From Gemmatimonadota bacterium (GTDB lineage: Bacteria; Gemmatimonadota; Gemmatimonadetes; Gemmatimonadales; Gemmatimonadaceae): a DNA stretch of 64,000 nt. Each line of letters opens with the position of its first letter. Positions within the stretch are counted from its first letter, which is position 1. The stretch is from NCBI GenBank assembly GCA_021299375.1, contig JAJTGR010000003.1:1-64000 (forward strand). The letters are read 5' to 3'. Both the position numbers and the translations under genes were made by a program. The notes beneath the pieces were generated by a model. The model saw nothing but the letters and a program-made list of their open reading frames with translations. It had not been told where the DNA came from and ran no database searches. Positions 31,644-47,581 of the stretch are shown in pieces.

Positions 31644-31701
31644 AACTCAACCTATGGGACCTGGAGCGGCATCCCGGCCGCTTTCGAGGTACGTTTCTCG
31701 G

Positions 31702-31944
31702 GTGACCGATTCCCTGTTCACCGAGGACTTCGAGGACGAAGTCCTCCGGAAGCGCCCATACCTCCAGAAGGAGTGGTGCATTCGCGTCGTTCAGTCTCCC
31801 GTGCGGAAGGAACGGCAGGAGCAGAATCGCTGGCGGTTCTGGGCACCGATTCCGGAACTCGGCGACCGATATGTCCGCGTCGTCACGCTCGATGATCAGC
31901 GCACGATACACAACGCCTTCCCCGACCGGGGATTCAAGCCATGA
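31702..31944 (+). CDS. DUF4258-like small protein, candidate toxin of a gene pair
   Basis: About 80 residues from a GTG at 31702; an ATG at 31654 would add 16 residues of poor coding character. The sequence runs from YLQKEWCIRVV through RFWAPIPELG and YVRVVTLDDQ to IHNAFPDRGFKP. This is the pattern I associate with small DUF4258-like proteins that precede DUF2283 genes in many genomes. Its stop overlaps the start of the DUF2283 gene (ATGA at 31941-31944), so the two are translated together. Toxin-antitoxin behaviour is an inference from size, pairing and overlap; no catalytic residues are evident. Confidence 0.65.
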   Translation: MTDSLFTEDFEDEVLRKRPYLQKEWCIRVVQSPVRKERQEQNRWRFWAPIPELGDRYVRVVTLDDQRTIHNAFPDRGFKP

Positions 31945-32159
31945 AGCTCAATTATCACGCCGATACCGACTCGCTCTACATCGACCTTTCCGAGCGAACG
32001 AGCGTCGAGAGCCGCGAGATCTCGGATGGCGTTGTGCTGGATGATGATGCCGATGGCAATCTGGTGGGCATCGACATCGACAACGCGAGTCACAAGGTGG
32101 CGCTTCAGCGTCTCGTCGTAAGTCGGCTGCCAGGCGAACTTGAGCGCATTGCGGGTTGA
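31941..32159 (+). CDS. DUF2283 domain protein, candidate antitoxin
   Basis: A 72-residue protein that is entirely a DUF2283 domain: MKLNYHADTDSLYIDLSER, then SREISDGVVLDDDADGNLVG and IDIDNAS. The start overlaps the preceding gene's stop by four bases, which points to translational coupling. DUF2283 proteins are small beta-rich proteins of unknown biochemistry, commonly encoded beside DUF4258 genes. This copy has no added DNA-binding domain, unlike the second DUF2283 protein at 45372. It ends 22 bases before a broken DUF4143 gene tail, so the pair may have landed inside that gene. Confidence 0.85.
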   Translation: MKLNYHADTDSLYIDLSERTSVESREISDGVVLDDDADGNLVGIDIDNASHKVALQRLVVSRLPGELERIAG

Positions 32160-44038: not shown

Positions 44039-44737
44039 TCACCACGCCGGTGGATGCGATGGTGCCAGTGGCGTGGGGGTGAGCGCGAACACGGCGGCCA
44101 TACCTGCGATGAGCGCGCGCTGCACGTCGACGAATGCCGGCACCGGCAGCTCGGCGTTCGCGCATTCGCGGGCGACCGTGCTCATGGTCACGCCATCAAT
44201 GCCGCACGGCACGGTGTGGTCGAAGGTGCGCAGGTCGTTCTCGACGTTCAGCGCCACGCCGTGCCAGGTAACCCAGTCGCGCGCGTGCACACCAATGCTC
44301 GCCAGCTTGCGCCGGCCGTCGGCGTCCTCACGCCAGACGCCCGTGAGCCCAGCCACGCGACTCGTCTCGAGCCCCAGCATGGCGAGGCCGTGCATCACGG
44401 CGCCCTCGACCTGTCGCAGGTACCAGTGCAGGTCCTTCCGGTGGCGCTTGAGGTCGATGATGGGATACGCGACGAGCTGCCCGGGTTCGTGCACGGTCAC
44501 GTCGCCGCCGCGCTCGACGTCGCGGAGTTGGATGCCCTGCGCCTCGAGGTACTGCGGTGTCGCCAGCAGATGCGCGGGCTTGGTGCTGCGACCGAGCGTG
44601 ACCACTGGTGGGTGCTGCACGAGGATCAGCAAGTCCTCGTCGAGGGCGCCGCTGATGCGGGCGGCGGCGGCGCGCTTCTGCAGCGCCCAGGCGTCGTCGT
44701 AGGGGGTGAGGCCGAGATCGAGCGTGTAGAGGAGCAC
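44039..44737 (-). CDS. lipB: Lipoyl(octanoyl) transferase
   Basis: A 232-residue enzyme that moves octanoyl from acyl carrier protein to apo-E2 proteins, the first step in lipoate attachment. The active-site loop is RGGDVTVHEPGQ (76-87), a variant of the usual RGGxVTYHGPGQ with Glu in place of the first Gly. The catalytic Lys144 is in KLASIGVHARDWVTWHG and the nucleophile Cys178 is in VPCGIDG. LALNVN appears as VALNVEND. Length is normal. LipA, which inserts sulfur afterwards, is encoded at 57279-58190 on the same strand, on the far side of the pyruvate dehydrogenase genes. Confidence 0.95.
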   Translation of the reverse strand: MLLYTLDLGLTPYDDAWALQKRAAAARISGALDEDLLILVQHPPVVTLGRSTKPAHLLATPQYLEAQGIQLRDVERGGDVTVHEPGQLVAYPIIDLKRHRKDLHWYLRQVEGAVMHGLAMLGLETSRVAGLTGVWREDADGRRKLASIGVHARDWVTWHGVALNVENDLRTFDHTVPCGIDGVTMSTVARECANAELPVPAFVDVQRALIAGMAAVFALTPTPLAPSHPPAW

Positions 44738-45132
44738 GCGTGAATATAGGGCCGCGTCCGTGCTGGGCCGGGGCGCTCGGGCGGCCTGGCAATCCCATGA
44801 TCAAGGGTGCGTCGTTCCGCTCACGGAGCAGGGGCGCACGTGATGTAGTTGCTGCGGATGGGCGTGCTCCGCGCGGTGAGGCAGCGCAAGGTGCTGGCCG
44901 TGCTGCAGGAAATGTTCGCGGTGTAGACCGTGGGCGCCGTGACGGGCGGGCAATGGGCACGTCGCGGCGACGCAGGCCTACGGGAACCGATCTGGCGAGT
45001 GAGCAACCGACGGCGCGTCGGAATGAGCCATCGGCGCTGAAAATGGTGAAGGCCGAACGGGCGTTCGAACCCATGCTGCGGGTGAGCGCAAAGCGCTGAG
45101 GTTCCTTTTGCACGCTCCCGTAGATATCTTGA
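44738..45132. other. Spacer without a confident gene
   Basis: About 395 bases. Open frames exist on both strands (for example 44740-45099 plus and 44821-45225 minus), but they conflict with each other, are Arg/Ala-rich and lack ribosome sites or domains. I see no nameable feature. Confidence 0.4.
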
Positions 45133-45576
45133 ATGCCGAAGCCGATCGTGTTTTCGCCTCATGCCAGAAGCCGCATGGCGCAGCGCGGGATCAGTGAGGC
45201 TGACGCCCGCCACATTGCCGACCATGGCGTGTGCAGACCGGATGCCGCTCCTGTTGGTGCGCCAACCCGGACGCGGTGCACCGGTTCCCGCGCCGGTCGT
45301 TCGGTCACCGTCGTGATCGCCGATGAGGCGACGAGGCTGGTCGTCATCACCGTCTGCGAGAGGTGCGCTCCATGCAGTGGACGTACGATCCCTCGGTCGA
45401 TGCCCTCACCATCGTGTTCGCGCCACGCCGACACGCGTCGCGCACTGATGAACTGCGCCCGGGCATGTTCATGGACGTCGACGATGCCGGGTGTCCGGTC
45501 GCTCTCGAGTTTCTCGATGCGAGCACGCAGTTCCCGCGAGAGGGGCTCGCGTCACTGCCGCTGCCGAAAGCCTTGA
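45133..45576 (+). CDS. DUF4258 protein, candidate toxin, frame extended past its normal end
   Basis: The first 77 residues are a full DUF4258 domain: FSPHARSRMAQRGISEADAR, then RCTGSRAGRSVTVVIADE and LVVITVCER. DUF4258 domains are short and usually end right there. Here the frame continues for another 70 residues of Ser/Arg/Cys-rich sequence that lies entirely over the next gene in a different phase. At the natural end the codon is TGC (45364-45366) where a TGA would give the expected stop, so a point change may have removed it. It precedes a DUF2283 gene, as in the pair at 31702. Toxin function is inferred, not shown. Confidence 0.75.
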   Translation: MPKPIVFSPHARSRMAQRGISEADARHIADHGVCRPDAAPVGAPTRTRCTGSRAGRSVTVVIADEATRLVVITVCERCAPCSGRTIPRSMPSPSCSRHADTRRALMNCARACSWTSTMPGVRSLSSFSMRARSSRERGSRHCRCRKP

Positions 45577-45773
45577 TTCCGCTGCGGGATGCCGCCGCGC
45601 GTGCGGGCTTGGCGCCGGCCACCCTCCGTCAACAGATCCGCAATGCTCGGCTCGTAGCGACCAAGTGGCATCGCGAGTGGTGGATCGATGAGCGCGAGCT
45701 GCACGCCTACTTGAGAAGCCGTGCGCCGCAGGGCCGCCGGAGCCGGCGCGGAACTCGACTCACGGATGTGTAG
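45372..45773 (+). CDS. DUF2283 protein fused to a helix-turn-helix domain, candidate antitoxin
   Basis: About 133 residues from the ATG at 45372, preceded by GAGAGG as ribosome site; a GTG at 45363 is also in frame. Residues 1-50 are a DUF2283 domain (MQWTYDPSVDALTIVFAP, then MFMDVDDAGCPVALEFLDAS). Residues about 68-122 form an excisionase/MerR-like helix-turn-helix: IPLRDAAARAGLAPATLRQQ, then WWIDERELHAYLRSR. The tail is arginine-rich. The fusion suggests that the protein binds DNA and may repress its own operon, as many antitoxins do. It overlaps the extended frame of the DUF4258 gene and ends before a terminator shared with lpdA. Confidence 0.82.
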   Translation: MQWTYDPSVDALTIVFAPRRHASRTDELRPGMFMDVDDAGCPVALEFLDASTQFPREGLASLPLPKALIPLRDAAARAGLAPATLRQQIRNARLVATKWHREWWIDERELHAYLRSRAPQGRRSRRGTRLTDV

Positions 45774-45858: not shown

Positions 45859-47262
45859 TTACGCGTGCAGCATCTTCCCCAGCGAGTCCAGCACCGCCTC
45901 CCCGATCGCCTCGGAGAGCGTGGGGTGCGCGTGCACGGCGAGGTCGATCTCCTCGACGGTGAACTCGTTCTCGCGGGCTACCACGAGTTCGTGGATCATC
46001 TCGGTGGCGTGGGCGCCGACGATGTGGGCGCCGAGGATCTCGCCGTGCTTGGCGCCGCGGATGATCTTCACGAAGCCGTCGGTCTCGCCGCTGGTGCGGG
46101 CGCGGCCGTTGGCGCTGAAGGGGAACTTGCCGACCTTGTAGTCGAGCTGCTGGTCCTTGCAGGCCTGCTCGGTGAGACCAATGCTGGCCACCTCGGGGTG
46201 GCAGTAGGTGCAGCTCGGGATGTTGCCGTAGTTCACCAGGTGCGCATGCTGCCCGCCGAGCAAGTCGGCGAGTACGTGCCCTTCGCGCGAGCCCTTGTGG
46301 GCGAGCATCTGGTTGCCGGCCACGTCGCCGATGGCGTAATAGCCGGGGACGTTGGTCTCGAACTTCGCGTTGATCTTCACGAAACCCCGCTCGCTCTTGG
46401 CGATGCCCACGGCCTCGAGGCCGATCTTCTCGACGTTGGGCGCGCGGCCGGCGGCCACGAGCACCTTCTCCACCTCGAGCGTCTCCGTCTGCCCGCCCGC
46501 TTCCACGGTCATGGTGGCGCCGGCCTTGCCGACCTTGACGTTCGAGATCTTCGCGCCGGTGCGCACGTCGATCTTGCGCTTCTTGAACGCCTTGGCCAGC
46601 TCGGCGCTGCAGTCGGCGTCTTCGATGGGCAGGATGGTGGGCGCCACCTCGAGCAGCGTGACCTTGGTGCCGAAGCTGGCGAACACGTCGGCGAACTCGC
46701 ACCCCACGGCGCCTGCCCCGACGATGGCCATGGTGGCCGGCGCCTTCTCGGCCACCAGCACGTCATCGCTGCTGAGCACGACCTGCCTGTCGAGCGCGAG
46801 GCCGACCTGCGGGAGCCCCTTCACGCGCGAGCCGGTGGCAATGACGACGGCCTTCCTGGCCTCGTGTGTCTCCCTCTTGCCGTCGGCGGTGGTGACGGTG
46901 ACCTTCTTGCCCTTCTCGAGCACGCCCTCGCCGCGGATCCAGGTGACCTTGTGCTTCTTGAAGAGGAACTCGACGCCTTTGGAGTTCTGCTGGGACACGG
47001 CACGCGACCGCTTCATGGCCGGTCCGAAGTCGAGGGTCACGCCATCGATGGTGATGCCGTGCTCGGCGGCCTTGCCGAGCTTCTGGGCGAGGCCGGCACT
47101 TTCGAGGAGCGCCTTGGCGGGGATGCACCCCCAGATCACACAGGTGCCGCCCAGCGCTTCACGCTCGACGACGGCGACCTGCAAGCCGAGTTGGGCGCAG
47201 CGAATGGCGCAGACGTAACCGGCGGGACCGCCGCCAAGCACGAGGACGTCGAACGAAGCCAT
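45859..47262 (-). CDS. lpdA: Dihydrolipoyl dehydrogenase (E3)
   Basis: A 467-residue flavoprotein from the ATG at 47262 (MASFDVLVLGGGPAGY). It reoxidises the dihydrolipoyl group of pyruvate and 2-oxoacid dehydrogenases with NAD. It has the FAD site GGGPAG at 10-15, redox cysteines 41 and 46 in GGTCVIWGCIPAK, the NAD site VGAGAVGCEFADVFASFG, and the C-terminal catalytic His446-Glu pair in HAHPTLSE. Inside the redox loop the usual LNV is replaced by VIW, a variant that keeps the spacing. It is on the same strand as pdhA, pdhB and pdhC but is separated from them by two protease-lipoprotein genes and a large inverted repeat at 47348-47581. Confidence 0.96.
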   Translation of the reverse strand: MASFDVLVLGGGPAGYVCAIRCAQLGLQVAVVEREALGGTCVIWGCIPAKALLESAGLAQKLGKAAEHGITIDGVTLDFGPAMKRSRAVSQQNSKGVEFLFKKHKVTWIRGEGVLEKGKKVTVTTADGKRETHEARKAVVIATGSRVKGLPQVGLALDRQVVLSSDDVLVAEKAPATMAIVGAGAVGCEFADVFASFGTKVTLLEVAPTILPIEDADCSAELAKAFKKRKIDVRTGAKISNVKVGKAGATMTVEAGGQTETLEVEKVLVAAGRAPNVEKIGLEAVGIAKSERGFVKINAKFETNVPGYYAIGDVAGNQMLAHKGSREGHVLADLLGGQHAHLVNYGNIPSCTYCHPEVASIGLTEQACKDQQLDYKVGKFPFSANGRARTSGETDGFVKIIRGAKHGEILGAHIVGAHATEMIHELVVARENEFTVEEIDLAVHAHPTLSEAIGEAVLDSLGKMLHA

Positions 47263-47347
47263 GGGAGTCGGGGAAAGCGGTGAGAGGTAACCCCGAAAGC
47301 TAGTCGCGGGCACTCGCTTCTGAGAACTCGATTCCCAGAGATCAGAT

Positions 47348-47581
47348 CTGAGGGTCTCGAACTCCGACGGCGATAGAGTCTTGAGACGGTGAGCCACGCA
47401 AGAATCGAGAGCACCGAGCGCTGGCGTCCGCCGGGGGGGTACCGCGTACCGGCGGCGCACTTGGCGCAGTTGGCGAGGCCCGTGGGCGCCCCTCCCCGTG
47501 CGGATGCAGCGCTCTGGTGATCGACTCGTGGGTGGCTCAGCGTCTCACCATGCTATCGTCGTCCGGGTTCGAGACGCTCAG
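47348..47581. repeat. Long imperfect inverted repeat upstream of lpdA
   Basis: Two arms of about 75 bases (47348-47423 and 47507-47581) are reverse complements at roughly four positions in five. Matched blocks include GTCTCGAAC, CGATAG, TGAGCCAC and GAGCGCTG. Weaker pairing continues inward to about 47442 and 47490. The whole would fold into one long hairpin in the spacer between the protease gene and lpdA. It may be a MITE-like element or a structured leader RNA. Confidence 0.75.

Follow-up and report, generated by a model that had tools for sequence, protein, structure and literature searches.

The DUF4258 family counts, in the excerpt of PMC11980606 on which we draw, among 13 toxin families with the BECR fold, with an unknown target; the same excerpt lists DUF4258-MqsA fusions and gives A/T as the gene order of the family. 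In surveys, DUF4258 was recorded with other or downstream antitoxins (excerpts of PMC4963859 and PMC10790755), and its toxicity was tentatively suspected by authors whose cloning in E. coli had failed (excerpt of PMC9232590). The canonical BrnA antitoxin is a ribbon-helix-helix protein, and the MqsR-MqsA system is toxin-first (both according to the excerpt of PMC11980606). The present work concerns a locus in a 64,000-nucleotide stretch of a Gemmatimonadota bacterium of the family Gemmatimonadaceae (assembly GCA_021299375.1, contig JAJTGR010000003.1, positions 1 to 64,000; the whole stretch is called the window), in which a gene for a DUF4258 protein is followed by a gene for a DUF2283 protein with a C-terminal helix-turn-helix (HTH) domain. 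We regard it as rather probable that these two genes constitute a type II-like toxin-antitoxin operon with the toxin gene first; its biochemistry is predicted.

Pfam matches were judged by the curated cut-offs (DUF4258, 25 bits; DUF2283, 23; HTH_17, 27; BrnT, 34.5; MqsA_antitoxin, 30). BrnT-BrnA is toxin-first like the window pair, and BrnT (3u97) lies near the structure model of the DUF4258 protein. Unlike BrnA, the window antitoxin consists of DUF2283 and an HTH, and the window toxin has no match to the BrnT family (PF04365) at E<=1, its relative L006 reaching 14.1 bits (L and G numbers designate loci and genomes). MqsR-MqsA shares the toxin-first order and a BECR toxin with the window pair, and the MqsA antitoxin has a separate DNA-binding domain; however, neither window protein has a Pfam match (E<=1) to either of these two families. 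Modules of DUF4258 with MqsA-type antitoxins possess the same toxin family, with the toxin first in all three cases tested (L058, L061, L066), but their partner is an MqsA-like zinc-finger protein (MqsA_antitoxin, 23-30 bits, just under the cut-off), with an additional HTH_3-like part in L066, rather than DUF2283 with an excisionase-type HTH. Finally, plain DUF4258-DUF2283 pairs on plasmids (Microvirga pR24_2, Thermus pTB2) contain the same two families in the same order, whereas their DUF2283 genes encode 65-74 amino acids and have no room for the HTH of the window protein.

The first gene matches DUF4258 (PF14076) over codons 7-75 with 36.0 bits if its first 81 codons are used and with 34.5 bits for the whole 147-codon frame, i.e. 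above the cut-off; homologous genes have about 75-92 codons. Residues H10, R14, R18 and R46 of DUF4258 do not vary among the 7 fusion-linked toxins that were aligned. The AlphaFold2 model of the DUF4258 protein has a predicted local distance difference test (pLDDT) score of 94.1. The closest solved folds are 7vd7_A (Z 8.5), a chain of a Salmonella toxin-antitoxin complex, BrnT 3u97 (Z 8.2; 2.4 Å over 71 residues) and MqsR 3hi2_D (Z 8.1), and further neighbours include RelE, YafQ, YoeB, ParE and colicin E5. Indeed, BECR-kind toxin or nuclease domains make up nearly all of the 50 structural matches listed for the model, so it is the predicted model that points to a known type II toxin fold; a sequence search of the PDB with the toxin gave nothing meaningful.

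The second protein matches DUF2283 (PF10049) with 33.6 bits over residues 4-51, counted from the ATG at 45372, which is a likelier start than the GTG at 45363 because most homologues begin at its equivalent. HTH_17 (PF12728) was matched with 20.5 bits, under the cut-off, so that the window protein itself is not counted as a member. The homologue in L011 scores 33.7 bits with this family, which is matched at E<=0.01 in 8 of 10 aligned members. In the AlphaFold2 model (pLDDT 91.6), residues 66-118 align with BldC (Z 7.7) and residues 66-119 with the excisionase Xis (Z 7.5), and MerR proteins align as well; the PDB sequence search returned one weak match, again to Xis (4j2n, E 0.058). A DNA-binding domain, as in type II antitoxins, is thus indicated by the profile in relatives and by the structure model. 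These results bear out the preliminary description of the locus, made from the sequence alone, which had named a DUF4258 protein followed by a DUF2283 protein with an excisionase/MerR-type HTH. The locus L011 (in G004) is a divergent one: the frame ahead of its DUF2283 domain is longer, and a palindrome element of the type described below is not recognisable. The PADLOC profile mad1 also matches the second protein (E 2.3e-4), as it might if the pair belonged to MADS or a similar defence system; but only the HTH is covered by this match (19.4 bits), no PADLOC profile matches DUF4258 at E<=1, and the flanking genes are read as metabolic ones, so that such an assignment appears hardly credible.

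Both Pfam families were searched in the same 298 genomes of the phylum, where DUF2283 occurs at 94 places in 77 genomes and DUF4258 at 26 places in 23 genomes. At 13 of the 26 DUF4258 places, the gene lies directly upstream of DUF2283, on the same strand and in the same order, against ~0.002 such cases expected by chance, and chance adjacency was therefore rejected. The co-occurrence that the preliminary description had proposed to look for is thus present, and the conserved adjacent pair typical of type II systems is found both in the phylum and on plasmids. Several of the other 13 DUF4258 genes are followed, as judged by eye, by small open reading frames (ORFs) for zinc-finger proteins; the three of these that were tested are the MqsA-like partners in L058, L061 and L066 mentioned above. 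Within the phylum, DUF4258 proteins therefore appear to use two or more kinds of partner, DUF2283 and MqsA-like proteins among them. A wider search of 395 genomes revealed 16 DUF2283-HTH fusions (homologues in 15 other genomes; the C-terminal part in G247 is degenerate). The expectation that such fusions sit beside DUF4258 holds for a part of them: DUF4258 is found upstream above the Pfam cut-off in 7 cases, weakly in 1 (G030, 14 bits) and as a short remnant in 2 (G023, G135), while 1 has a doubtful tail (G047) and 5 have no recognisable toxin.

The surroundings of all 94 DUF2283 places were classified as far as the contigs reached, using home-made profiles for DUF4258 (threshold E 0.01) and for a second family, designated HNAF (0.001); L021 and G378 are the same sequence and were counted once. 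An HTH, assigned by eye from the translations, is present at 10 of these places (in G247 with a degenerate C-terminus), and the other 84 genes are plain. DUF4258-like partners accompany 8 of the 10 fusions versus 14 of the 84 plain genes (Fisher p = 9e-5). Five of these eight partners are above the Pfam cut-off, that of G030 is weak, and those of G023 and G135 are short remnants. HNAF, on the other hand, precedes none of the 10 fusions versus 46 of the 84 plain genes (p = 7e-4). Taken together, 60 of the 84 plain genes follow DUF4258-like or HNAF genes and 24 follow neither. Note that the home-made DUF4258 profile was seeded with sequences that it classified, the window included, and it is therefore the Pfam matches that serve as an independent test.

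HNAF is a conserved family of ~80 amino acids encoded directly upstream of plain DUF2283 genes (e.g., L026, L031, L047, and L141 in Rhodothermus), with the signature RYLRVVTL..TIHNAF.DRGF and without a meaningful match in Pfam or NCBIfam. It is a candidate new toxin family. Both home-made profiles match two plasmid sequences from outside the phylum, the Microvirga pR24_2 DUF4258 protein and an ORF of Azospirillum AZO_p1 that carries no annotation. Because these two sequences bridge the families, HNAF is probably a divergent DUF4258 branch. The bridging was obtained with small home-made profiles, with filters off and on a small sequence set, and a profile-profile comparison of the phylum alignments did not show homology (probability 1%). 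The window possesses such a pair as well: on the forward strand, an HNAF-family ORF (31654-31944; no Pfam match at E<=1) is followed with a 4-bp overlap by a DUF2283 gene (31941-32159; 58.3 bits).

According to the mechanism that we propose, the first gene would encode a toxin, presumably an RNase, that adopts the BECR (RelE/BrnT/MqsR) fold, and the DUF2283 domain of the second protein would bind and mask this toxin. The C-terminal HTH would bind, probably as a dimer, to a 22-bp palindrome-like site ahead of the toxin start (candidate operator, Table 1), and binding there would repress the operon. This element is conserved between the window genome, G366, G338 and G378. In G030 and G271 the related element has perfect 9-bp arms and lies 7 bp and ~30 bp, respectively, upstream of the toxin start, and in the toxin-less loci G338 and G319 the element is located ~45 bp upstream of the antitoxin. 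Related palindrome-like elements with varying arms can be found at 11 of the 16 fusion loci. Pairing was seen in 78.8% of the arm cells of these 11 elements, a value that 3 of 500 shuffles equalled or exceeded, and changes on both sides were seen in 8 cells, a number reached by 1 of 500 shuffles. Of the 16 fusion loci, 7 have an element with 7 or more of the 9 arm positions matching, versus 1 of 83 plain loci (p = 6e-6; one of the 84 plain loci, with <300 bp upstream, was dropped) and none of the 14 plain loci of DUF4258 type. As a cleaner check, the pattern was sought with up to one mismatch in 30 genomes of the genus. Exactly three contain it, once each and with 0 mismatches, namely G366, G338 and the genome of the window, and the fusion was found in the same three genomes only (24 of the 30 were in the wider search; the other 6, mostly incomplete, were searched separately). 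With one site per carrier genome, there is no evidence for a wider regulon at this stringency.

In G366 the element, the toxin gene and the fusion are all present, whereas its sister species G338 (L155) has lost the body of the toxin gene and retains only the last few codons of it, along with the element and the fusion. Among the further fusion loci, the toxin is a remnant in G023 and G135 (with an internal stop in G135), doubtful in G047 and not recognisable in G319, G328, G239 and G247. Such a one-sided loss, with the toxin gone and the antitoxin kept, is what a toxin-antitoxin pair predicts. A profile of the fusion-linked toxins gave 5 strong matches in 307 genomes, all with the fusion downstream; as these five are its own seeds, it shows only that there is no further strong lone toxin. 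The weak G030 and the broken G135 toxins precede the fusion as well. Thus, the toxin-antitoxin character suggested in the preliminary description gains support from the pairing of the families, the RelE/BrnT-like predicted fold, the candidate operator and the one-sided toxin loss.

Several observations weigh against a toxin-antitoxin operon. The Z scores near 8 of the toxin model are modest by the structure tool's own note, and Foldseek found no match for it at E 0.001 (the best, RelE 2khe, had 0.027 with probability 1.0). No strong structural neighbour was obtained for the DUF2283 part, where residues 1-66 are covered by 9a77_B (Z 6.6) and 7vmc_C (Z 5.2), and promoter scans gave no sigma-70 match. 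The element is weakly palindromic in the window (5 of 9 arm positions), where 28 of 300 shuffles score as high against the consensus (G338, G366 and G378 are similar), and it is absent from 5 of the 16 fusion loci. At a loose threshold of 5 of 9 arm positions, a match is present somewhere upstream in 14 of the 83 plain loci, and the 64-kb window has 45 sites, or 90 counting both strands. The enrichment is partly circular, since the element was defined on fusion loci, and shared ancestry inflates the element tests, because the 11 loci fall in six genera. The toxin frame of the window is without its usual stop and reads on to 45576, resulting in a 205-bp overlap with the second gene. Finally, five fusions are without a recognisable toxin, and 30 synonymous versus 2 non-synonymous changes separate the fusion genes of G338 and G366 (ratio of non-synonymous to synonymous rates, dN/dS, 0.019); such strong conservation without a toxin could reflect a role other than neutralising a DUF4258 toxin.

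With respect to the missing stop, intact toxin relatives terminate upstream of the partner ATG (L021/G378, L157/G366, L006, L008, L009) or overlap the partner start by 4 bp (L013/G030). The long overlap is therefore a trait of the window genome and not of the system, and the overlap that the preliminary description had counted as a toxin-antitoxin mark, although present, is a weak argument, as an overlap of this length is seen in the window genome alone. The missing stop may be genuine, a sign of decay or, in this genome of 116 contigs, an error of assembly; the toxin copy of the window may thus be altered or decaying. Between the window and G366, dN/dS is 0.18 for the toxin and 0.19 for the antitoxin, which points to real coding constraint on both genes, although synonymous sites are near saturation.

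The toxin-less fusions, the conservation of the G338 fusion and the missing stop in the window would all suit a DUF2283-HTH protein that is mainly a self-contained, autoregulating DNA-binding protein (e.g., an anti-addiction or cross-neutralising factor), with DUF4258 being optional or decaying. We consider this unlikely, as the toxin gene is under coding constraint, the toxin-first order is conserved in several genera, the single matching site per carrier genome of the genus does not suggest a wider regulon, and the toxin loss could be recent.

The genomic place of the pair bears on a second alternative to a toxin-antitoxin operon. The genes on either side are presumably lipB, encoding octanoyltransferase, and lpd, encoding dihydrolipoyl dehydrogenase (both names read from the sequence alone). 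Among 20 genomes of the genus with both flanks, the lipB-lpd spacer has ~20-247 bp and no detected pair in 17 and ~1 kb without a detectable pair in G079, while the window and G366 carry the pair; in G338 the fusion lies ~2 kb from lipB. As most spacers have no detected pair, the pair was either acquired at this one site within the genus or lost from it in the other genomes. In G366 (L157), the pair is flanked by two copies of a ~170-220-bp repeat with long inverted arms (at 1228-1451 and 2288-2459), which recalls the structure of a miniature mobile element, and a related copy is present in L155 at ~2007-2215. These repeats, the many spacers without a detected pair and the similarity of the HTH to Xis (4j2n) and to PHROG excisionase families (6e-4, 4e-3) could be explained if the locus were a control pair of a mobile element, the HTH being a true excisionase, i.e. 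a recombination directionality factor. This is very improbable: BldC and MerR regulators match equally well, inspection by eye of the ORFs next to the window pair showed no integrase, repeats of the G366 type were not found at the window locus, and DUF4258-DUF2283 pairs occur without an HTH at other loci.

Table 1. Features of the putative toxin-antitoxin locus and its surroundings (window coordinates).
Feature	Position	Strand	Description	Assignment
Candidate operator	45106..45127	+	22-bp element TTTTGCACG-CTCC-CGTAGATAT with CG-N4-CG core; ends 5 bp upstream of the toxin ATG	
DUF4258 toxin-like ORF	45133..45576	+	147 amino acids as open frame; domain at 45151-45357	PF14076
DUF2283-HTH antitoxin-like gene	45372..45773	+	133 amino acids from the ATG at 45372; GTG at 45363 possible	PF10049
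DUF2283 domain	45381..45524	+	five strands, then short helices in the AlphaFold2 model	
Excisionase/MerR/BldC-type HTH	45567..45722	+	residues 66-117	structure model
Flanking gene, read as lipB	44039..44737	-	named from the sequence alone	
Flanking gene, read as lpd	45859..47460	-	named from the sequence alone	

By eye, a clear Shine-Dalgarno sequence was not seen ahead of the toxin start (45116-45133 and relatives), and a purine-rich GAGAGG/GGAGG stretch lies upstream of the antitoxin start; this could favour antitoxin excess. Terminator scans revealed nothing, and the Rfam search gave no match.

Outside the phylum, PLSDB contains 15 records with DUF2283, of which 11 were examined, plus pACMV6. 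DUF4258 is annotated directly before DUF2283 in three plasmids, i.e. one from Microvirga and two from Thermus. In Microvirga pR24_2, DUF4258 scores 43 bits and overlaps DUF2283 by 4 bp; the one Thermus DUF4258 protein tested scores 15 bits, below the cut-off. HNAF-like ORFs can be found in Rhodothermus (2.6e-32) and, weakly similar, in Geminocystis (2.5e-5). In T. aquaticus pTA14, DUF5647 precedes DUF2283, T. thermophilus pHB5018e has no same-strand gene immediately upstream, and a Gloeothece plasmid has DUF2283 without an annotated partner. In a Rhodoferax plasmid, a RelE/ParE-HTH pair represents the nearest annotated genes upstream of DUF2283, and RelE/ParE is located upstream in both Acidiphilium plasmids. 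ParE was considered as a further DUF2283 partner, since pACMV6 encodes a true ParE (64 bits) just before DUF2283, but this case was not counted because a 58-amino-acid ORF, by eye the antitoxin of this ParE, precedes it. The fusion itself was not found in the plasmid collection, where the DUF2283 domain alone was matched, and has no match in the phage collection; in viral contigs, the fusion profile matched a single locus weakly, and plain DUF2283 matched none. A scan of one genome collection returned five loci, all from Gemmatimonads; as it used a single short pattern, the fusion may occur more widely.

The distribution of partners leads us to a broader proposal, towards which we lean with less assurance than towards the operon itself: DUF2283 may be the neutralising domain of a large unrecognised antitoxin family for toxins of the DUF4258 superfamily, HNAF included, with HTH and operator as optional parts added in this lineage, and with a fusion that can outlive its toxin. 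DUF2283, alone or together with DUF4258, and COG5428 are not mentioned in the PubMed Central (PMC) literature searched, which excludes most subscription papers; PF10049 or pfam10049, searched with other terms, is not among the matches listed, which does not prove its absence. This agrees with the preliminary description, which knew of no described system with this fusion, and a DUF2283 antitoxin is likely, though not proven, to be new in print. DUF2283, so far without an assigned role, would thereby be given an antitoxin function that can be tested. With a defined antitoxin partner and a predicted operator, DUF4258 and DUF2283 can both be tested in one experiment, and the comparison of plain with fused DUF2283 proteins illustrates a way in which antitoxins may acquire a DNA-binding activity.
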